Assembly: GCF_964204645.1 (NCBI RefSeq)
Contig: NC_134034.1
Span: 11,680,462 to 11,744,461, forward strand
Origin: Tubulanus polymorphus
Lineage: Eukaryota; Nemertea; Palaeonemertea; Tubulaniformes; Tubulanidae
Reading direction: 5' to 3'
DNA: 64,000 bases
The translations under genes were made by a program, and so were the position numbers. The notes under the pieces are model-generated. The model was not told where the DNA came from. It did no database searches and was given only the letters and a program-made list of their open reading frames with translations. This document shows, piece after piece, positions 9,072 to 27,940 of this stretch. Each line of letters starts with the position of its first letter. The first letter of the stretch is position 1.

Positions 9072-9170
9072 ATGCGCGATGGCTTCCTACATCAGCAACA
9101 TGCTGAAACGCCCGAAAAACCGGGAAGCAATCGCCGTAGTAACGAGATACCCGTCGCCGGGCTCGTGTAA
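9072..9170 (+). promoter_or_regulatory. Overlapping upstream ORF on the glycosyltransferase mRNA
   Basis: An ATG at 9072 lies 7 nt before the main ATG (9079) in another frame. Read through, it gives a peptide of about 32 codons ending inside the first coding exon. The main start has G at -3 and G at +4, a stronger context than the upstream ATG (C at +4), so leaky scanning could serve both. The effect on translation is inference. Confidence 0.5.
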
Positions 9171-12100
9171 AACGAAATTGATTCCTGCGATCGGCGGTCG
9201 AGGAGCGGCGAGAGCTCAGTTATTGATGGTCAGTTTATTTTAACTGGATTTACTTCGATTTAAGCAATCCACCCTGACAGCGGGAACAGGGTGGTGCCGA
9301 TAATCTGGAGAACTCAAGGAATCAGAAAAATCCCGAATGAATCCAGGCTAACTCGGGGAATTCGACAAATTTAACCAAAAACTTGAAAAAACTCAGGGAA
9401 TTTGGATAATGTTATTGACCACATGTTTCTTTATCAATACATGATTCAAAGAAAAATTAATGAATGCATTTTCAACCTGGAAATCTCTCTGGTTCACTCA
9501 GGGAAAATCGGATTTGTAAATAGGCAGAAAGTGGCGCCACCTTGAGGAAGTATCCTCACTTGCCGCAGTAGCTTACGATGTTCCCAACTAATTTCTGTTC
9601 TCATTTCAGACGGAACATCTTCTGTCGGAAGTCCAGACGGTGAAATTATCGAAACCCGATCTCCAAGTGTTCGTGTATTATTGCGGAGCGACCATTGATG
9701 ACATGCGATATTGGTTCGATCGTAAATACCCGGGATTATCGCCGATCTTTAAACAACAAACCGGGCTAAACCTCGGTGAAATCATCGCGAATATCTTCAA
9801 ACAGACTTTCGCAGCCGGCAATGAACGCACTATAGTCGTAGGTAACAACACCAAAAAACATTCGCTTTTCTGCTCTTCGTGTTTAGATTAGTTTTCATAT
9901 TGATAGTTGTTTTATGTCTCGGAAAACGAGATGATTTTAACCCCTTTTCTGGTTTCCATTTTCCCATGGTTTCAATATAAATAAAATGTTTTCGTAAAAA
10001 TTCTGCCGTACATGAAGCAGCTGTGGTTGTTTCGAATGAAGACCCTAACGATGACTCCTAGTGGATCCTCACTTGCCACTTGTGGAAACCTCTATCGCTA
10101 TACAGTAGTTGATATCCTACTGCACACTAGCGACACCTGGTGGATCCTCACTTGCCACTTGTGGAAACCTCTATCGCTATACAGTAGTTGATATCCTACT
10201 GCACACTAGCGACACCTGGTGGATCCTCACTTGCCACTTGTGGAAACCTCTATCGCTATACAGTAGTTGATATCCTACTGCACACTAGCGACACCTGGTG
10301 AATCCCTGCTTGCCATGAGCAGAATCCTCTATTGTTGCAGTAGTTGGTGTCCTACTGCACACTAGCGACGCCTGGTGGATGGTCGCTGTAGCGTTCAAGT
10401 TTCCCCATTTCTAATCTGTTGTTGTTTTTGTTTTTTCTTGCAACGTAGGTAGTGACATTCCTGGAGTTAATTATAACATTCTCGAAGATGCGTTGAGTTT
10501 GTTGAAATGGGATGAAAACGACGTTACGATCGGTAAAGCGCTTGACGGAGGCTACTATCTGATTGGTTTAAACCGCAGAACCAGCGCGTTGATTGGTCAG
10601 TTTAAATTTTAACTAGTCATTTTTCGAAAAGTTTGAATTGTTTAGCTGTAAATGGTAGAATGGGGGGCAGATCCAGATGCCAATTTAAACTTGCTTGTTA
10701 CATCCCAAAAAGGCACTTCGGTGTCCCAAAAGGCATTCTTAGGTATAGGCGTAATCCCACACTGATGGGCTAATTGTAAAGAATTTGTCAAGTTCCAAAG
10801 GGCACTTTGAGGTCCAAAAGGTAGTATTAAGTGCAGGCATACCCCTGCACTGAAATGCATGAATTATTGTTGTTGACAAAATTATCAAAAGGGCGCTAAA
10901 AAATTTGATGAACTTTGTACACAAGCTCATAAGTCTCCCTGGATCGGGCCCTGTGAGTGATTGTTGAGTCTCCCTGGATCGAGCCCTGTGAGTGATTGTT
11001 GAGTCTCCCTGGATCGGGCTCTGTGAGTGATTGTTGAGTCTCCCTGGATCGAGCCCTGTGAGTGATTGTTGAGTCTCCCTGGATCGAGCCCTGTGAGTGA
11101 TTGTTGAGTCTCCCTGGATCGGGCCCTGTGAGTGATTGTTGAGTCTCCCTGGATCGGGCTCTGTGAGTGATTGTTGAGTCTCCCTGGATCGAGCCCTGTG
11201 AGTGATTGTTGAGTCTCCCTGGATCGGGCCCTGTGAGTGATTGTTGAGTCTCCCTGGATCGGGCCCTGTGAGTGATTGTTGAGTCTCCCTGGATCGGGCC
11301 CTGTGAGTGATTGTTGAGTCTCCCTGGATCGGGCCCAGTGAGTGATTGTTGAGTCTCCCTGGATCGGGCCCTGTGAGTGATTGTTAAGTCTCCCTGGATC
11401 GGGCCCTGTGAGTGATTGTTGAGTCTCCCTGGATCGAGCCCTGTGAGTGATTGTTGAGTCTTCCTGGATCGGGCCCAGTGAGTGATTGTTGAGTCTCCCT
11501 GGATCGAGCCCTGTGAGTGATTGTTGAGTCTCCCTGGATCGGGCCCTGTGAGTGATTGTTGAGTCTCCCTGGATCGGGCCCTGTGAGTGATTGTTGAGTC
11601 TCCCTGGATCGGGCCCTGTGAGTGATTGTTGAGTCTCCCTGGATCGGGCCCAGTGAGTGATTGTTGAGTCTCCCTGGATCGGGCCCTGTGAGTGATTGTT
11701 AAGTCTCCCTGGATCGAGCCCTGTGAGTGATTGTTGAGTCTCCCTGGATCGAGCCCTGTGAGTGATTGTTGAGTCTCCCTGGATCGGGCCCTGTGAGTGA
11801 TTGTTGAGTCCCCCTGGATCGGGCTCTGTGAGTGATTGTTGAGTCTCCCTGGATCGAGCCCTGTGAGTGATTGTTGAGTCCCCCTGGATCGGGCTCTGTG
11901 AGTGATTGTTGAGTCTCCCTGGATCGAGCCCTGTGAGTGATTGTTGAGTCATCCTGGATCGGGCCCTGTGAGTGATTGTTGAGTCTCCCTGGATCGGGCT
12001 TTGTGAGTGATTGTTGAGTCTCCCTGGATCGGGCCCTGTGAGTGATTGTTGAGTCTCCCTGGATCGGGCCCTGTGAGTGATTGTTGAGTCTCCCTGGATC

Positions 12101-15100
12101 GGGCCCTGTGAGTGATTGTTGAGTCTCCCTGGATCGAGCCCTGTGAGTGATTGTTGAGTCTTCCTGGATCGGGCCCTGTGAGTGATTGTTAAGTCTCCCT
12201 GGATCGGGCCCTATGAGTGATTGTTAAGTCTCCCTGGATCGGGCCCTGTGAGTGATTGTTGAGTCTCCCTGGATCGGGCCCTGTGAGTGATTGTTGAGTC
12301 TTCCTGGATCGGGCCCTGTGAGTGATTGTTGATTTTCTCTGCTGTAGAACCGTTGTTCATGAAGGGGATAGAGTGGGGAACGGAACGCGTTTACACTCAA
12401 CAGATCGAAGCCGCCGAATTCCTCTCGTTGAAAGTCGCCACTTTAGAACAGCAACTTTCAGACGTGGTAATTATTCACTAACGACTGAGAAATCATTACG
12501 AGATTCTGAGTTTGATATTGTTTCATACCTCAGGATCCAGTTCCAAAGTTCCGGGGCTGTGTTGCACAGACACGACCAGTCTAAAAGTACCCGCCAGTCT
12601 TAAATCTAGAGAACAGTGACTGCAATTAACTGATATCTATCTATCTCAGTGTAGAGTTAACAAATAAAAACCCACAGTTAGATCTATAAAAACAGTTTAT
12701 TTTCCTTACAGTTTCGAGGCTTTAATTAAACCTCATCAGAGGAACAAGTGTTTTTTGTTCCTCTGATGATGAGGCTTAGTTGAAGCCTCAAAACTGTAAG
12801 GAAAATAAACTCTTTTAACAGATCTAACTTAGGGTTTTTATTTGTTAGCTGAAGAATGGTCTTTAAGTTCTTAGATTGGTTATAGAACCAAAGTGAGCTT
12901 AGACTGGTCTTTAAGTTGTTAGATTGGTTATAGAACCAAAGTGAGCTTAGACTGGTCTTTAAGTTGTTAGATTGGTTATAGAACTAAGATTGTCTTTAGA
13001 CTGGTCTTTAGAATGTAAGCCATGACTGTGCAACAGACCCTGCGGATTATTACGACCTGATCTGTGAATCGTGTTCTAACTGTCGAACTGTGGTCCGTCG
13101 TGTCGTTTTGCAGGATGTCGCTGATGATTTGAGAGTTTTAGAGGATTGTTTATCGGTAACGACGGATGAATTAGTCAATCCTCAGTGGTCGATTATAATT
13201 CCTGTGTTCAACGAAGAAGACGTCATCGCCGAAACTCTGGATACGCTCTTTCAGGTATTTCGCAATACGTTCTTCTAAAACGATCGACCGACCCGTAAAT
13301 TATTGATGCTTTAAGTTGAGCGTATTCATTGAGATTTTCCTAACTGATACGCAGTTAACTCTCCATCTTGTGTGAAGATTATGAATTCGCTGATCAGAGC
13401 AAGTGGTCAGATTGATCAAAAGCGATGAAAATGTGTGTAAAAATTTGAGAAATTTCATATGAAGACATATGATCAGTAACCGCTTGCGTTATTGTGCCTT
13501 GCTCATCGAAAAAAATCGAAAAATCCTGGGGCTGATTTTACAGACTGGTATTACCTTTTACTCGGGGGCTTGCTCAACTCATTTTCAATTGAGTTAGCCC
13601 CTGGTTTAAGGGTAATACCGGTCTATAAAACCGGGCCCTCGTATTATGTTGTTAACAAATGTGAATAAAGCTGATGAGAAGATGTGAGATCATCAATCTG
13701 AGTCTCGCAGTCAATTATAAAAAGGTAGTTCATCTTCGTCTGAATTCATGGTCAGCGTTGGTATCTATTGTCAGCAACGCTGTCTTGATTTTGTTCCACC
13801 CTAGCCACCCCTCTCCCTCCCCGCCCTTCTCTCCCTCCCCCACCTCTCTCTATTTTCACCCCTCTCACTTCCTGCCCCTCTCTCTCCCTGCCCCTCTCCC
13901 TCCCTGCCCCTCTCCCTCCCTGCCCTTCTCACCCTCCCCACCTCTCTCACTCCCTGCCCCTCTCTTTCCCTGCCCCTCTCCCTCCCCGCCCTGCTCTCCT
14001 TCCCCGCCTCTCTCACTCCCTGCCCCTCTCTTTCCCTGCCCCTCTCTCCCTGCCCCTCTCACTCCCTGCCCCTCTCTCCCTGCCCCTCTTTTTCCCTGCC
14101 CCTCTCTCTCCCTGCTGCTCTCCCCCTGTTTTCAGTGTATGATTTTGTTGATTGTTAGAATATCGATGGCAGTAACAGTATAGAAGTGATAGTAGCAGAC
14201 GGAGGAAGCACGGACTCGACGATCGATAAAGTGAAACAAGTGATGAGTAATCATCCGGAAGCTAAATTCTCGCTCATGGAAACGAAAGCTTGTAAGTATT
14301 TTTCATACCGGTATCGTAGAGATGTGGAGACAGATAGCACGGCGGTCAATAATCGGTCTAACTCTCGTCTTGAAAATATGAACCGGTCTTATTACCTCAG
14401 AAAGATCATTTCATGTTTGTGCGAGTTAGTGAAAAGTCTGAGTTGGCTATGTCCGAGTAATTTTCATCGGAGTTGGCTATGTCTGAATAAGGCAAGACAT
14501 TAGCAGGATTAGCAATCTTCTTATGCGTCTCAGTAGTTTTTCTCGTGCTGAGAACTTTAAACGTTATGTGTGTGTGTTTGTAGGTCGAGGTCACCAGCAG
14601 AAGATCGGAGCAGATGGCGCTACCGGTGATATTCTACTGTTTTTGCACGCTGATACGCTGTTACCGCCGAACTATAACACGCTGGCCAGCGATTGTCTGT
14701 GGACGCCGGGCAACGTCGCCGGAGCATTTCAATTCAGTGTTTCGAAAACTGAGTGAGTTTTGAAAATATCCGGGAATCAAAAGGACTAGGGGTCCAGGGA
14801 CACCGTGCCCACTTGGGAAAAAATTTCTATATTCCATGCCCCCTGGTGAACATATACTAAACCAATGACCTGGAAACTCACCACAATCATAGAAAATATC
14901 ATGAGCTACAATATGCAATGGATTGTGGTAACAAAATATGTATAGGTATCAATATAAATAGACACATAGTATATGACTCCAATATTTAACTGCCCCTGGC
15001 GGCAAGAGCAATAAATTTGGTGATCCCAGATTCCTTGTGAGGAGATGTATCCTATCACTCTGCTAATTGATAATCAAATATAAAGTCTATAAGTTAAAAC

Positions 15101-16840
15101 ATGTTGATTTTCCACCTACGACTGAGGACTGATGACACTAAGATGGCCGGCAATTACGTGATATTTGACTGATCACAAAACCCATCTCACTTGCTGAAGA
15201 TCCCTTCTTGCCATTTTCTGATTTCAGATCATCTACCAAGTTCCAAGATTTTCAAATAAAAATGTTAGAATGGGGAACGAATTGCAGATCAAAGTATGTC
15301 GGTATGTGTTATCAGATTATCTTCTTCCTGAGACTTTCCGAGTCTGACTGACTTCTTCCTGAGACTTTCCGAGTCTGACTGACTTCTTCCTGAGACTTTC
15401 TGAGTCTGACTGATGTCTTCCTGAGACTTTCTGAGTCTGACTGACTTCTTCCTGAGACTTTCTGAGTCTGACTGACTTCTTCCTGAGACTTTCTGAGTCT
15501 GACTGACTTCTTCCTGAGACTTTCCCAGTCTGACTGACTTCTTCCTGAGACTTTTTGAGTCTGACTGACTTCTTCCTGAGACTTTCTGAGCCTGACTGAG
15601 ACTATTGGACTGATATTGTTTCCGTTCTATACATGTTACTGCTAATTTTTTTTAGAATTACCGTATGGAGATCAAGCTCTGTTCATCCGTAGATGTTATT
15701 ACGATAAAATCGGAGGAATCCCCGACCATCGGCTGTTCGAGGATTTTGTTATGGTGAGTTTATTGCAAACGTCGGAACAAACGAGCAAAAGAAATACGGG
15801 GTGGCGCCACTTACCTGGAGATCGGGGAACAGTCAGGGAATATTCTTTTCTTTTAAAAAGTCGGGGAATTTTGTAACAAAGGACTCGAAGTTAGGGAAAT
15901 TTGCTGAGAAAGTTAGATTGCATGTAAAATCATTGCGAGTAAAATCAAACGGTCTCTGTCTATGTCTTACATGATGTTGATTGATTGAATTCTTAGCAGA
16001 TCAAGTCAGGGAAAAGTCAGGGAATAGTCTGATCAAAAGTGGCTGACCTGAGAAAAGAATGATTTTAACATTTAACTGAATTCGTCCTGGCCTGCACCTC
16101 CCCTCTTCAGCAGCCTCAAAAACTCAGATTCAATGGATTTTGATTTTAGGTAGAAGCGGCAAAGAGAATCGGTCACATTGGAATAGTAGCTGCACCGTGT
16201 CAGACTTCCGCTCGTAGATATCAACGCAATGGCTTTTGGCGGGTGAGAATTTCTAATAAATGGCAATATGCTCGGTCTACTGTACAAAAAACCGCATTTC
16301 TTTGTGAATTTGGTCGTCAATGAGCAAAACTAACAGTCGATGAGGGATCATTTATTTATTCTGACATTTTTAAAGTTTTGATATTGGTAGAATTTTAATT
16401 TCATCGCGATTTATTTTCAGAACACATGTTTAAACAGCGCGATGATCGCGGCCTATAAATTCGGATATCACCCGAACGATATCGCTAACTGGTACTACGG
16501 GAAACCACCGACGGACACAGATCATCGCGAACTCGGCGAAGACAAATCCTCATCAGCAGACGATGACAGTCGTGGCGAGGAGGAGAGAGAGGAGACGACC
16601 GGTAGTCAGGTGACGGTAGACGCATCGACTCCAGATAGCCGGGTAGGGGAAGCAGACGTCAGCCGGGGTGGGCAAATTGATGTCAGCCGGGGAGGGGAAG
16701 CAGACGTTAGCCGGGTTGGGGAAACAGATGTCGTCCAGGGAGGGGAAGCAGACGTTAGCCGGGGTGGGGAAACAGATGTCGTCCAGGGAGGGGAAACAGA
16801 CGTCAGCCGTGTAGGGGAAGCAGACGTCACTTCCAATTAA
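9079..16840 (+). CDS. Fused TIGR04282 (DUF2064) + TIGR04283 glycosyltransferase
   Basis: Eleven exons: join(9079..9228, 9610..9841, 10449..10595, 12348..12466, 13114..13254, 14159..14291, 14584..14752, 15228..15301, 15656..15753, 16150..16242, 16421..16840), 1,776 nt, 591 aa, all phases consistent. Residues 17-226 match TIGR04282/DUF2064: VVTRYPSPG..KTKL (20-34), GSDIPG (128-133), DGGYYLIGL (160-168), EWGTERV (185-191). Residues 241-479 match the GT2-fold family TIGR04283: SIIIPVFNEE (242-251), VADGGSTD (275-282), GATGDILLFLHADT (319-332, HAD at 329-331 in the metal-binding DxD position), LPYGDQALF, LFEDFVM and terminal WYYGK. In bacteria both families are named for arsenosugar biosynthesis because of genomic association with the radical SAM protein ArsS. 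The acceptor and donor sugars here are unknown. Residues 480-591 are an acidic tail with SRGGEADV-type repeats. No signal peptide or membrane segment is evident, so a cytosolic enzyme is inferred. Confidence 0.9.
9287..9545. mobile_element. Dispersed MITE-like repeat (copy 2 of 3)
   Basis: CAGGGTGGTGCCGAT at the left is the inverted match of AGTGGCGCCACCTTG at the right. The internal GGATAATGTTATTGACCAC is shared with the copy at 6465. Located in intron 1 of the glycosyltransferase gene. Confidence 0.65.
10062..10381. repeat. 79-bp minisatellite, about 4 copies
   Basis: Unit starts at 10063, 10142 and 10221 are exactly 79 bp apart and nearly identical; the fourth copy is diverged. Each contains GGATCCTCACTTGCCACTTG and CACACTAGCGACACCTGG. 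In intron 2 of the glycosyltransferase gene. Confidence 0.92.
10931..12338. repeat. 35-bp minisatellite, about 40 copies, abutting a splice acceptor
   Basis: About 1.4 kb of a 35-bp unit with CTCCCTGGATCGGGCCCTGT and GAGTGATTGTTGAGT, in which only a few positions vary (GGGCCC, GAGCCC, GGGCTC). The last unit stops only about 10 bp before the acceptor at 12347 of glycosyltransferase exon 4. Every unit contains TGTGAGTG, that is a GTGAGT donor-like hexamer. Three units equal 105 nt, so a long open frame appears on the minus strand. It has no other sign of being coding. Confidence 0.95.
12531..13042. mobile_element. CAGGGGCC-type element with a nested insertion and tandem expansion (tentative)
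   Basis: GGGGCTGTGTTGCACAGACACGACCAGTCT on the left and AAGCCATGACTGTGCAAC plus AGACCCTG on the right look like degraded inverted ends of the family seen intact at 28335 and 31678. Between them lie the foldback element 12656-12848 and two to three tandem copies of a unit of about 48 bp (TTAGATTGGTTATAGAACC). Boundaries are uncertain. Confidence 0.4.
12656..12848. mobile_element. Foldback MITE of about 190 bp
   Basis: The ends GTTAACAAATAAAAACCC and GGGTTTTTATTTGTTAGC are inverted. The inner stems TTTTCCTTACAGTTTCGAGG and CCTCAAAACTGTAAGGAAAA pair, as do GTTCCTCTGATGA and TCATCAGAGGAAC. No coding capacity. In intron 4 of the glycosyltransferase gene. Confidence 0.8.
13525..13638. mobile_element. 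Small foldback MITE (family copy 1)
   Basis: ACAGACTGGTATTACCTTTT and the later GGGTAATACCGGTCTATAAA are inverted arms around an AACTCATTTTCAATTGAGTT palindrome. A second member is at 29109-29222. In intron 5 of the glycosyltransferase gene. Confidence 0.75.
13797..14130. repeat. C/T-rich minisatellite (CCCTCTCCCTCCCTGC type)
   Basis: About 330 bp of almost pure pyrimidine on the plus strand, built of CCTCTCTCCCTGCC-like units, just upstream of exon 6 of the glycosyltransferase gene. A long mirror-type pyrimidine tract can in principle form triplex DNA. It produces artefactual open frames on both strands. Confidence 0.9.
15321..15604. repeat. 31-bp minisatellite, about 9 copies
   Basis: Unit TTCTTCCTGAGACTTTC plus TGAGTCTGACTGAC, 31 bp, almost identical copies. 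In intron 8 of the glycosyltransferase gene, a short distance before exon 9. Confidence 0.92.
15797..16050. mobile_element. Dispersed MITE-like repeat (copy 3, diverged)
   Basis: Starts GGGGTGGCGCCACTTACC and carries several GTCAGGGAAT-type pieces, resembling the copies at 6465 and 9287. The right end (GTGGCTGACCTGAG) is diverged. Boundaries are approximate. Confidence 0.45.
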
Positions 16841-19260: not shown

Positions 19261-21929
19261 GGCTCCTACTAAAAGCCGACCAGCGCCGACCAGCGCCGAC
19301 CAGCGCCGACCAGCGCCGACCAGCGCCGACCAGCTATCAAAAGCGCCGACCAGATACGCTTACCAAAACGGATAACAAATTCTTAAATTGAAATAATAAC
19401 TTTTATTTTTATCTTTTTACTTTTATCTATTTAACACGATTAACTCGATTGATCGTTTAAACTAGTGTGTCGGCATCAAAAGTCAAAAACAAGATACTTA
19501 GAGCTACAATACATTTGCAAAGAAATACTTATTTAACTTTTTTCATTGAATTAAATAACAGAAATATACCAATATACAAATTTACATGTTAACAATTTAC
19601 ATTCAGGCTTATATTCACTATATTTCTCAGATCTGAAATTTACAACGGTTGATAGTCTGATAGTTTGAACTTTGTCATCAAAAACATGTTGAGCTACAAT
19701 AGCAATACTTTAACTTTTTCAGTGAATTATTAATTACAAAAATATATACAAATTTACAAGTTTACAATTTACATTAGGACTATTTCACTATTATAGTGAA
19801 ATAGTCCTAAAATTATACACGTTAACACATATCACTGATATTTCTATTAACCTAACCTTAATTTTCGACTTTTTGAATTTTCCGATTCGCCGTTCTTTCA
19901 CTTTTTACGCGTTTCCTCTGACCTGGTTTTTTTGCAATATTTCCGGTTTTAGGAATAGTCAGCAGACCATCTGTTGATGTCATTGTATTAATTGGTTTTG
20001 TTGGCCTTATCGTGGCTTTCATGAATTTCTCAAATAGTTTTTTTTTTATCGTTTTCAGTTTTTTGAGTCCAAATGGCATGGCTGACAGTATAGCTTTTTA
20101 ATTTTGATACGATTTCGAAGTTTCCTTGGTTGTGAATAGCTCTGCGAATATCGATATATTGTAGTTTCACCATTTTATGTAATTCCTCGATTAAGTCCGG
20201 AATCTTTAATATCTTCCATTTGGTTGAAAGTTTTATGATACTGTTAATTGTCTCGCAATTGTTGTTGGTCCAACCGATTGAATGGACCTTTTTCACGACT
20301 GACGGAAAGAACACATACTGCTTTAGTCGCGGTTCCAGTTTGTTGAAATAGGCTATAAACTCTGGTGCTGATTCCATTATGTCTGCCTTTGTTTCAATCA
20401 TTTTTTGTTCGTATTTGAATTCGTCATCCTGATGCAGCGCTCTACTTTTACCGAATATCGCATCGACTATTCTATCTTTAACTTTATCGTTGACACCAGT
20501 TTTGTGCAACAAATGTCTTTTTACATTTTCGATAAGATGCCGGTAACACAATATTTGATTAGCGGAGGGGAATGCCTCTTTTACCGCCTTAAGCAACGCT
20601 TTTTCTTCATCAGAACCGAAAGTCAGAGATTCACTGTAGGCGATTTCAGTCGTTGTGACTTCCGAGTCAAGCTTCCCTTTGATGTGTGCGAAGAAATGCT
20701 GATAGGTTTCGGTTTCCCCGTCCCAATGTAAAAACAGAGGGCCGATGAATATCGGGTGTTCCTGAGTTTCCCGGCGAAGTAAATGTGTATTCTTAAAAAC
20801 GGTAATTGTCAAAAAACACGCACCAACGTTAAATGTCCTGTCAACACCAAGGATAGATCCAGACTGTACACAGAATGTACGAATGTCTTTAATTTGTTGG
20901 TCTGTATATAGAATAGCCATTGGTGGTTTTCCTTTCAATGCGAACACTTCTCGTACAAAATCGTTTTCATGAAGCATATTAAAGAGTTGTTGAATGTCAT
21001 CGGCGACATTTTTCCTAGTCAATTAGTCAATGGAATTGATATATTTATAAGTTTATTTTATGTCCATTAATCTTAAAGTCAATTGGTCAACGGGTCATTG
21101 TTTTAACAGATCAAAAGAATTACTCAATTGGTTTTTGATGACAAGCCCAGTAAAATTCAAACGGTTTAAGTAATTATATCTTAAAGTTGCGTGTGTCGAA
21201 TGATTGCACACATCTAATTAGTGGATGATCACAGTTATTTTATTCCTTTCATCAGTAATTCCTTTCTTTTATTTAATTGAGAAGTGCGTTCTTGACTTCA
21301 GTTCACATGCTACTTCCCCTGGACCAATGATCAAAGCTGTTATGAACGTCCTTATTAATTTTAGCGCGTGTACGTGACGAGAGTAGTCTTGCGTAAAAAT
21401 CTATTAGGCAAATATCATACGAGATGTATGATATACACATAAACATACATGAAAAAGAAAGAAAGATTTTAAGTTGTTTGCATTTTCTTTTATTTCAAAT
21501 AACGATAGTATATGAAATCCCAGTCATATTTAATGCAAGCTTAACATGAAAAAATAAACCTGATCAATATACCAATTTCAATTTAATTTTGCCATATGAA
21601 ATTATAAATCTAAAAGTACATCAGACAGCAGAATACATTTTAACGAATATTGTCTTGGACATGAAAACTCAGTAAAAAATTAACACGAACACAATGCAAT
21701 CCAAGTAAATATAACCATTTGAATCTAATTTTGCATGTAGTCATAGGTAAGACAGCAGCATACATTTTTAACGAATTGTCTAGGAAATCGGGGCTTGGAC
21801 GGCGCCGGTCGGCGCTTGGACGGCGCTGGTCGGCGCTTGGACGGCGCTGGTCGGCGCTAGTGGGCGCTGGTCGGCGCTGGTCGGCGCTAGTGGGCGCTGG
21901 TCGGCGCTGGTCGGCTTTTAGTAGGAGCG
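19261..21929. mobile_element. MULE-type DNA transposon, full element
   Basis: The inverted ends are GGCTCCTACTAAAAGCCGAC at 19261 and GTCGGCTTTTAGTAGGAGCG ending 21929. GTTGTCGG flanks both sides (19253-19260 and 21930-21937), matching the 8-9 bp target duplication of Mutator-like elements. Just inside both termini are tandem CGCCGACCAG / CTGGTCGGCG subrepeats (19274-19357 and 21796-21918), so the terminal repeats can lengthen by subrepeat expansion. A hairpin of two TAGGACTATTTCACTA-type arms sits at 19775-19809. The element carries one minus-strand transposase region. Confidence 0.85.
19858..21022 (-). pseudogene. MULE transposase, frameshifted
   Basis: A minus-strand frame of 330 aa (20030-21022) carries the MULE transposase core: GVDRTFNVG (first acidic residue of the DDE triad), LFLHWDGETETY, the C..H element in CYRHLIENVKRHL, and NNCETINSIIKL with the final acidic residue. 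The frame runs out at a homopolymer of T (plus strand, about 20038-20048). The overlapping frame 19858-20079 continues with a basic C-terminus rich in K and R. A single-base slip in that run would join the two parts, so the gene is either broken or decoded by slippage. Usual MULE proteins are longer, with an N-terminal zinc-binding domain; I do not find one upstream of 21022. The catalytic core looks little decayed, suggesting recent activity. Confidence 0.8.
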
Positions 21930-24463: not shown

Positions 24464-26020
24464 TTAGTTGGATTCCTTTTTGACACATGTTTCTTGTACA
24501 TGAATCTCATTTTCGATTTCCTGCAAACTCGATGGTGTACTATCGTTTTGACTAAAGGTACCGTATTCGTTTTTTAGAGATCCACCCGCTTTTTCGAATA
24601 ATTTAATACGTTCAGTATAAACGTTTCCGTCGCAAGCGATCCAAATAATCCCACCTAAACAAACGATATAGATTGCTGCTTCAATGACAAACGCCATTCC
24701 CGGGAATATCTGGAAAGTTACGGAGTATAGATTTGTGAAGATGATTGCCCCTAGTAGATTCGAGGCCGTCTCGCCACTCGAAAGCAAAGAGAATATTTTA
24801 CCAATTTCATCTTCATCAACCAACTTACTAATGATTGATTTTGAACCGGATACAATCATACCGCTGACTGAACCGACTATTACTCCAACAAAAATCATCC
24901 ATGTTTGGTCGCTGACTGATACGAAAACTAACCGGGAAGTTTTGAAAACTATACCGATGATAACTAAATTCACATCTTGAATCCTAAATATAACCGATAA
25001 TAGTGGTAAGAGCAAACACAAAGCTAACCCTAGACTTGCGTAATCGACGGCTAACAAGTAACCGTACAATGATTTGGACCAACTCAACGGGTAATATCTC
25101 ACAAAAAGTAAAGTTACATCGATTTCTCCAGCTTTACAAATCTGATTCGCGATAACTACGAAAAAAACGACAACAAGGTGAAATCGCGAATGCCCCTGTC
25201 TCGGTTTGATAAGTACTTCCACCGAATCGCGAATGTTAACCGGGTTGAATAAGAATGGTTTACCGTTCTTCTTCGTCGGTTCTATTTCGGGATAAATGTC
25301 GTTAGATTCGATTCCGGGCACACTTTCCTTCAAAAACATAAGCAGTACTATTACGCACGCGGCCAATATAGCCATAACGATGAGGAAAATGAAGTTAAAA
25401 CTGAGTCTATCCAGAAGTGAACCGGCCAACAATGACCCGAGAAAAAGTCCGAAAAAATTCATCGCCAAAAGTTTACTCAGTTTTTTGGTTCGGTTTTCCT
25501 TACTGCTCACATCCGAAACGTAGCTGTATACAGCCATACTAAGTACAGCGCTTTTTCCAAAACAGCCATTGATGGCCGCTCCGATTAAAACAAATGCAAG
25601 AGCGGACGATTGAGGTAGCATGCCAAACATATAAAACAAGCACGCAATGATGGCGCCTACGCAAGGAAGAATCATCAGCAACTTTCTTCCAACTATGTCG
25701 CTCCAAGCTCCGCAAAATAATCCAAGAACAATCGCTGGAAAATTTAGCAAAATCTTATAATACATTATGTAATATGCCGAGAGTATTTGGACGTGGGTCT
25801 CTTCAGTCGGGTGTTTGCGTAAACTATAACATAAGCCATGATCCTGATACTCGATTAAACATACTTCTTGATAAATGAGTAACTTGACAGTTGGTTCTAA
25901 CAGTGACTCAGCCGATTTGTACATTAAAAACACCATTTCGGCAACGATTGCACCACTTTTTATGCACTCCATCGACGAACAAGGAAAGCACGATTTAGGC
26001 CTACTGTCCTTGGCGCCCAT
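24464..26020 (-). CDS. SLC46: SLC46-type proton-coupled solute transporter (MFS)
   Basis: A single uninterrupted 518-aa frame. The SLC46 family of the major facilitator superfamily includes the proton-coupled folate transporter SLC46A1 and the lysosomal SLC46A3. Features seen: a short cytosolic N-terminus, about 12 hydrophobic segments, and a Cys54/Cys64 pair in the first extracellular loop. The MFS loop-2/3 signature GAWSDIVGRK is at 104-113. YSYVSD (165-170) followed by ENRTKKL (175-181) is typical of SLC46 (compare YAYISD..SRT). A polar C-terminal tail runs from about 470. Length is normal for the family (about 460-500 plus tail). The ATG at 26018-26020 is the first in frame before the N-terminal region. 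The gene has no introns, unlike its neighbours. Substrate and membrane (plasma or lysosome) cannot be told from sequence. Confidence 0.92.
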   Translation of the reverse strand: MGAKDSRPKSCFPCSSMECIKSGAIVAEMVFLMYKSAESLLEPTVKLLIYQEVCLIEYQDHGLCYSLRKHPTEETHVQILSAYYIMYYKILLNFPAIVLGLFCGAWSDIVGRKLLMILPCVGAIIACLFYMFGMLPQSSALAFVLIGAAINGCFGKSAVLSMAVYSYVSDVSSKENRTKKLSKLLAMNFFGLFLGSLLAGSLLDRLSFNFIFLIVMAILAACVIVLLMFLKESVPGIESNDIYPEIEPTKKNGKPFLFNPVNIRDSVEVLIKPRQGHSRFHLVVVFFVVIANQICKAGEIDVTLLFVRYYPLSWSKSLYGYLLAVDYASLGLALCLLLPLLSVIFRIQDVNLVIIGIVFKTSRLVFVSVSDQTWMIFVGVIVGSVSGMIVSGSKSIISKLVDEDEIGKIFSLLSSGETASNLLGAIIFTNLYSVTFQIFPGMAFVIEAAIYIVCLGGIIWIACDGNVYTERIKLFEKAGGSLKNEYGTFSQNDSTPSSLQEIENEIHVQETCVKKESN

Positions 26021-27940
26021 TTTCCCAAATTGGCGATAAGAGTTGAAATCCGCTTTTTATGAAGTATAAGCAACTTTGAGACGGATTCGGTAATATATCA
26101 CAAGTTATATAATTCGTACGGCACAATCGAAATTTTCAGAAGAGATTTTCCAGTTATCGCCCAAAATCGACTACAGTAACAGTACGTCTACTGATGAATG
26201 CACACACGTTGGACGGTACTGATTTCCGTGTCGTTGGAGATTACTTGTCCAACAGCAATCTAATCTGATTTCCAGTTTGAAAGCTCTCGCGACGTGTCTG
26301 GTAGACTGGTCGCCTAGTAGACTAGTCTGCCCTTAATTGCTGGTCACTCAGATATTAGTACCAATTTAAATAATGGCTTTTCTCCACATAATTCCCTTCT
26401 TTCTAAGTATATTACTTCATGCCTCGCCAAACACTAATTATTTACTCACTCACCAATCAATTAACCTGTCCTCCTCTGTATATATACCCCTGTTTTTAAT
26501 CTATATCCATAGAACTATAACGGAATATAGTTCGGTTATAGTTCTATGCTATATCTTACACCTGACGATGATCTCTAGGGTGAGATCGAAACGTCGTGTC
26601 TTTTATATATTTTTGATTGAATAAATGAATTCTGGTTTTTAAATTCGTTTAATCTGTAAATAGTGGGATTTTATCTTATTGGTCGCCGGTCTCTACCTTT
26701 CAGCTACTATTTTGACTGCGAATGCAGGTGGCGCAGAATTGGACAGGCGACCAGTCTAGTCTATGAAATACACTCGCTAGACTAGACTGGTTGCCTGTCC
26801 CATTTTGAAGCTAGATCAGTTGGGTGGCGGGCCGGGAATGGACTGAAAAATCCCAAAATTCTCACAATACTACGCACTGAAACTACGAAACTGCCATAAT
26901 TAGTTTAACCATCTTTGAAAAGATAAATTCAGCAGGCTTTTTATTTTATAAGTATACTATAAGTCGTGCAGGAGGTGTCGCCTCTACCGGTCATTTCGAG
27001 CACTAAATCGCCATTACCAGGAAGTAAACTGTGATGGGAGTTGTTTGATAAAAAATTCGATTTATTTCACCGAAATTCTCAGAAATTCAGCGACCGCGAA
27101 ACGAGATGAGAATCTCAGATTAATTAGCGAGATTCGATAGGGGATATCAGTAAAACAGGTGAGTGAGACAAGCCGTCACTAATCGGTGACTGAGACCTTA
27201 AACCCTGCCAAAAAGGCAAAAATCAACACAGTTGTGAACCAGGGTCGCAGCACCACAAGTCAGACATTGACGGCTCATCCCTATAGTTTCAATTACTGTT
27301 ACTCTCAGCATGTTAGTAATCAGAAGGGTGATATTATTATTGTTCTCATATTGGATTTGTTTGTACTAATATTAGGCTTTTTAAAGCAGGCTATTAGTCC
27401 CGGGCTATTAGTCCCGGCCCATTAGTCCTCTGCGGTGTCTGTCAAACAGAGAGGTCATAAGTCAATCATATGAATAATGAACTCGGTCGGGTCCTGTGAG
27501 AAAGAGAGAGAGTTGGGCTTGTTTTTCACAACGGCCCCCTCTTCACCCCCTCTGCTGCATGCATGTCTAACTTATGTATAAAGGGTATATATGATATTTA
27601 AATGACTTGTTTTATCAATAGGCCTAGGCTATAGGTCTATAGTGAGGATTATGGGGGCCAAATGTTGCCTTATGTTTTCTTACTTTCTACATTAAGGCAG
27701 GATGTCAACATCTTTTCTTCCTAGTTGTAAAAGTAGCAAATAACGAAGTTAATTAGCCTAATTAGAATTTTCACCAATGGAAAGCTCTCCGCTTAACATA
27801 AGTCTGTTAGACCTAATTATGATAATTTAGGTCTATTTACATTCCTATTTACATAATGTATGTGGACGGTTCCGTACTTAATAACCTTCACGTCGTCCAT
27901 TTCCATAGCAACAATTATTGAATTTCGTCTTATATTTTTT
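26021..27940. other. Divergent SLC46 / WIPF intergenic region
   Basis: Contains both promoters. It also holds an A/T palindrome (26509-26547, arms ATAGAACTATAAC), followed by CCTGACGATGATCTC and GAGATCGAAACGTCG (26560-26595), and a 62-bp palindrome at 26749-26810 (GACAGGCGACCAGTCTAGTC and its inverse). A likely WIPF non-coding exon ends with AGTAAAACAG before GTGAGTG near 27161, and the next acceptor (TTTTTTGTAG) is at about 27945. I see no further gene. Confidence 0.5.

Follow-up and report, generated by a model that had tools for sequence, protein, structure and literature searches.

Arsenosugars and arsenolipids occur in marine animals, where algae and the diet are usually seen as their source. 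Two protein families, the CofC-like TIGR04282 and the MftF-like TIGR04283, are named as glycosyltransferases of arsenosugar biosynthesis; these names derive from genome context, and no paper testing a protein of either family was found in the literature searched. The arsenosugars of molluscs are usually linked to dietary algae (PMC5387034), and in bacteria ArsS adenosylates arsenic in oxo-arsenosugar biosynthesis, as described in a review (PMC12159101, citing Cheng 2021). The bacterial TIGR04282/TIGR04283 pair adjoins genes for ArsS, an ArsM-like methyltransferase, MTAP, DUF547 and VTT/FAD proteins. An alignment-based scan of prokaryote genomes yielded 80 loci, half of which (40 of 80) encode both domains in one open reading frame, with TIGR04282 preceding TIGR04283 in 38 cases and the reverse order in 2. 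Fused loci occur in Cyanobacteria, Thermodesulfobacteriota, Planctomycetota, Kiritimatiellota, Verrucomicrobiota, Actinomycetota and others; in the remaining loci, mostly from Pseudomonadota and some from Cyanobacteria, the two genes are separate, either adjacent or at a distance. ArsS lies in the flanks of 21 of the 80 loci and within ~6 kb of 13 of the 40 fused ones, and a whole-genome search at E 1e-20 found it in 32 of 40 bacterial genomes that carry at least one gene of the pair; the 8 genomes with no ArsS at that threshold include many MAGs, and the cyanobacterial fused loci have none within ~6 kb. Four of the bacterial fusions (L039, L044, L061 and L073) bear a third, N-terminal GT2 domain.

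A spliced gene joining the two families

The window, that is, the whole 64,000-nucleotide stretch of Tubulanus polymorphus DNA that was analysed, holds on its plus strand (9079-16840) a gene of 591 codons in 11 exons (1776 bases including the stop), with 10 introns, all GT-AG; rebuilding returned the same model as the sequence-only reading had given (591 amino acids, ten introns). Both families had been claimed there as complete, and a profile check bears this out, since hmmscan matched each model end to end and above its curated cut-off: TIGR04282 at residues 18-222 (138.8 bits, cut-off 134, model positions 1-189 of 189) and TIGR04283 at residues 242-477 (195.9 bits, cut-off 182, positions 2-221 of 221). 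The TIGR04282 score is barely over the cut-off, the bacterial fusions reaching 183-232 bits. In Pfam the protein matches DUF2064 and Glycos_transf_2.

Exon 1 (9079..9228) carries the start codon, the N-terminus of the TIGR04282/DUF2064 domain and the RYPSPGSCKTKLIP motif, and this domain continues through exon 2 (9610..9841), exon 3 (10449..10595, with GSDIPG and DGGYYLIGL) and exon 4 (12348..12466, with WGTERV). Exon 5 (13114..13254) is the junction exon, coding for the last part of the first domain (DVADDLRVLE), a linker and the first part of the second (WSIIIPVFNEE); because this single exon spans the junction, the two halves are not separate genes, and the fusion that had been claimed is a real one. 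The TIGR04283 domain then extends over exon 6 (14159..14291, DGGSTD), exon 7 (14584..14752, RGHQQ and FLHADT), exon 8 (15228..15301), exon 9 (15656..15753, PYGDQALF and FED) and exon 10 (16150..16242, TSARRY), and ends in exon 11 (16421..16840) with WYYGK, followed by an acidic repeat tail and the stop codon. When the whole 268-Mb genome was searched with both profiles, only exons of this gene matched (exon 3 for TIGR04282, exons 7 and 9 for TIGR04283), and the fusion gene looks single-copy. Among 74 highly conserved columns, defined as at least 90% conserved in 27 bacterial fusions, 66 are kept in the animal protein, most of the substitutions being conservative; KTKLIP, GSDIP, DGGYYLIG, DGGSTD, HADT, GDQ, ED and TSARR are also seen, on inspection by eye, to be retained. 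This retention fits a working enzyme.

Some further features of the window were recorded. The C-terminal tail, about the last 110 amino acids, is an imperfect acidic repeat (SRGGEADVSRVGETDVVQGG, 16600-16836) outside both domains. By eye, intron 3 is mostly a tandem array (10930-12340) with a unit of ~35 bp (GTTGAGTCTCCCTGGATCGGGCCCTGTGAGTGATT), and a second array with a unit of ~37 bp lies in intron 8 (15320-15610). Elsewhere the minus strand carries a tubulin-family exon that reads like gamma-tubulin (256-534), an open frame matching MULE and Mutator-type transposase (20033-21022) and an MFS transporter of 530 amino acids in a single frame (24467-26056).

The bacterial fusions closest in layout (for instance L027 from Leptolyngbyaceae, L036 from Desulfohalobiaceae and L048 from Planctomycetota) carry both domains in a single chain, ordered as in the animal protein, with both families above cut-off and ArsS in most of the genomes; they differ from the animal gene in having no introns, no acidic repeat tail and higher family scores. 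The clusters of Acinetobacter (L004), Burkholderia (L009) and Cupriavidus (L007) place members of the two families next to each other, accompanied by genes for ArsS and/or MTAP, but encode them as two proteins, usually in the order TIGR04283-TIGR04282. Thus, while the fusion is real, an origin of it in the animal, as the sequence-only reading had implied, is not supported, given that the same arrangement is common in bacteria; most likely a gene of bacterial type, fused beforehand, was acquired by the animal, by a route that may include another eukaryote. Its domains are divergent, with ~30-39% identity to bacterial relatives. In the careful tree, the sampled Pseudomonadota are split from all other sequences, the animal included, at 100/100, and the animal stands in an open fork on a long branch (1.78), which for the glycosyltransferase may mean a changed substrate. 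A quick glycosyltransferase tree placed the animal beside L036 with 88% SH-aLRT; this donor candidate was dropped, as a constrained tree joining the animal with Cyanobacteria had a higher likelihood and the careful tree gave the open fork. ArsS trees put the animal beside Pseudomonadota at 80%, or in an open fork, and on these trees no donor lineage is named. The ten introns, from which an old acquisition and not contamination had been argued, do speak against contamination and make an old acquisition plausible. A single-sequence search of viral contigs and a search of phage records returned no relative.

Regarding activity, a structure model of the Leptolyngbyaceae fusion, built with 27 sequences (mean pLDDT 94.1), stands in for the animal protein. 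The closest solved relative of the first domain is the DUF2064 protein 3cgx from Desulfovibrio (E 2.7e-20; Z 27.9 for the bacterial model), which differs in being a single domain and whose description goes no further than putative nucleotide-diphospho-sugar transferase. The fold is also alike to that of CofC/FbiD-type guanylyltransferases over 186-191 residues at Z 19-22, namely 7p97, a 3-phosphoglycerate guanylyltransferase (Z 22.0), 2i5e (Z 20.6) and Rv2983 (6bwh, Z 19.1); at the sequence level the F420_cofC profile TIGR03552 matches the Acinetobacter TIGR04282 protein with 44.6 bits, below its cut-off of 105. The second domain matches GT2 enzymes, among them WrtF (Z 23), PcManGT (Z 21.8) and AvpGT (Z 20.7). 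The description of both domains as glycosyltransferases is therefore doubtful, since in the model of the bacterial homologue the first resembles nucleotidyltransferases and is probably more like these than like glycosyltransferases.

Partner genes in the animal genome

The ArsS family TIGR04167 matches exon by exon on another contig, C1, of the same genome. The gene model (L020:2736-6269, within the locus L020, C1:6027500-6037400) comprises 8 exons and 455 codons with one in-frame TGA; exons 1-2, which the family does not cover, are less secure than the rest. When the TGA is read as Cys, the protein reaches 416 bits for TIGR04167 (cut-off 300), it also matches DUF3641 above cut-off, and the radical SAM motif CNQACNHC is intact. 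An N-terminal extension of 140 amino acids, noted by eye, may be a mitochondrial targeting region. The gene is flanked upstream by an Nramp metal transporter and downstream by an XRN exonuclease, so the locus is nuclear animal DNA. No report of ArsS, TIGR04282 or TIGR04283 in an animal was found in the part of the literature searched, and annotated animal relatives may exist.

The animal gene reads CFGCTAGMGSS-TGA-QGVLA-TAA, with a GSSU motif, and its TGA aligns with the Cys of most bacterial ArsS (CTAGxGSSC) or with a bacterial TGA (CTAGSGFT-TGA), several Thermodesulfobacteriota, Myxococcota and Actinomycetota sequences having TGA at the same column. TGA-containing ArsS genes were seen beside the fused TIGR04282-TIGR04283 gene or in the same genomes at L037, L038, L047, L052, L065, L132-L134 and L136. 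Among bacterial selenoprotein families, TIGR04167 is listed with the motif GxxU (PMC13188914). Just 3' of the animal stop codon, an element sought by eye and then by an Rfam scan matches SECIS_1 (RF00031; L020:6294-6361) with 21.5 bits, under the gathering score of 35, and gene and element together span L020:2736-6361 (C1:6030235-6033860). The AUGA, AAA and GA core is in place; the E-value is 0.52 over 4227 families, or ~1e-4 for one family over the 2.2 kb searched, and the fold agrees in outline, with a stability only 1.3 standard deviations better than shuffles. A core-motif rule, written after the element had been seen, gave 0 occurrences on the two strands of the window, which served as 128 kb of background, and one further occurrence within L020. 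A genome-wide SECIS_1 scan, in which 150 of 6569 candidates were scored against an E-value limit that is hardly reachable for a 64-position model over 268 Mb, returned no match, an outcome that does not count as absence. Because a TGA at the bacterial Sec column is followed downstream by a SECIS-like element, the animal ArsS is probably a selenoprotein, the element itself being called only probable because of its score under the Rfam threshold. When the main text of the metazoan (PMC3473315) and algal (PMC7539508) selenoproteome surveys was searched, neither a radical SAM protein nor an arsenic protein came up.

AS3MT lies on C2, with exons from C2:30111651 onwards, and its top PDB hits are without exception methyltransferases acting on arsenite or arsenic, the partial model scoring below the NCBIfam cut-off; probable further methyltransferase copies are found on C8 and C6. 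MTAP is present in one copy, on C3, and is closest to MTAP of the 1cb0/1cg6 type, the human enzyme. It looks like an ordinary animal MTAP and further supports the genome being that of an animal. The animal genes are not clustered (fusion on C10, ArsS on C1, AS3MT on C2, MTAP on C3), and clustering is not expected in an animal. Two DUF547 loci (C2:27757450-27757964 and C11:10448366-10448536) were also noted, with no tie to the pathway made; genes for DUF547 often lie next to ArsS clusters in bacteria. Because ArsS, probably a selenoprotein, and AS3MT occur in the same genome as the fusion, the link to arsenic is, in terms of gene content, stronger than the sequence-only reading had claimed and better supported than it could know. 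A further set of bacterial-type arsenic genes in animals would be in line with the view that animal AS3MT was itself transferred from bacteria (PMC5398495).

A proposed pathway and the alternatives

The reading that we favour, and consider somewhat probable, is that the product of this gene is bifunctional and carries out late steps of arsenosugar synthesis in an animal, having descended from a TIGR04282-TIGR04283 fusion of bacteria. Weighing against it are the spread of the animal genes over four contigs, the eight bacterial genomes with no ArsS match, the ordinary character of the animal MTAP, the long branch of the glycosyltransferase and the SECIS score under the Rfam threshold. The broader proposal, that the animal makes arsenosugars itself with nuclear genes for AS3MT, for ArsS as a selenoprotein and for the fused nucleotidyltransferase-glycosyltransferase, its arsenosugar being partly self-made and not only eaten, is given an even chance. 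In such a pathway, arsenite would be converted to dimethylarsenite by AS3MT, and ArsS would then put a 5'-deoxyadenosyl group on the arsenic by radical SAM chemistry; the AS3MT step and the corresponding step of bacterial ArsS are known from the literature. We infer the remaining steps, and the running of the pathway in this animal: an MTAP-type phosphorylase would remove adenine to give 5-deoxy-5-dimethylarsinoyl-ribose-1-phosphate, the N-terminal CofC/FbiD-like domain would activate this sugar phosphate with a nucleoside triphosphate, and the C-terminal GT2 domain would transfer the arsenic-bearing ribose to a glycerol-type acceptor. In a variant, the first domain would instead activate a glyceryl phosphate acceptor, its guanylyltransferase kin acting on small phospho-acids. 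The order of methylation, adenosylation, phosphorolysis, activation and transfer would be the simplest, because ArsS adenosylates arsenic and MTAP occurs in the bacterial clusters.

The most serious competitor is that the fused enzyme makes an arsenic-free glycoconjugate, both families serving general small-molecule activation and transfer and ArsS being a separate trait. The context-derived family names, the eight bacterial genomes without an ArsS match, the cyanobacterial fused loci with no ArsS nearby and the divergence of the animal domains are all compatible with this explanation. Nevertheless, ArsS accompanies the pair in 32 of the 40 genomes and lies near 13 of the 40 fused loci, and that ArsS and the fusion, both rare genes of bacterial type, should meet in one animal genome would be unlikely if they were unrelated; this explanation is accordingly held to be unlikely, though it retains appreciable weight. 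A role together with ArsS in the breakdown or remodelling of dietary arsenosugars or arsenolipids, instead of their synthesis, would draw on the reversibility in principle of nucleoside phosphorolysis. It would also suit algae-eating animals, which obtain arsenosugars by diet (PMC5387034), but the ArsS chemistry described in the review cited above (PMC12159101) builds, in that it forms an As-C bond, and the family motifs are retained in the animal ArsS, so that such a role appears improbable.

Contamination, symbiont DNA or a dead remnant could be suspected from the exclusively bacterial relatives found, but these are bacterial because the search covered no animal database. The fusion gene has ten GT-AG introns, sits inside a contig of more than 11.7 Mb and keeps its reading frame intact over 591 codons along with 66 of the 74 conserved columns, and ArsS is likewise split into 8 exons between the Nramp and XRN genes; an origin of this kind is thus very hard to credit.

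In summary, late arsenosugar synthesis by a fused enzyme of bacterial type is the preferred reading. For the two context-named families, the bacterial data offer a testable split between CofC-like activation and GT2 transfer, and the gene set, if the reading of its TGA is true, would add ArsS to the animal selenoproteins. In a genome that holds both ArsS and a putative downstream enzyme, arsenosugar synthesis by the animal itself becomes directly testable, and the capacity to make arsenic-containing sugars, commonly attributed to algae, may extend to this animal.
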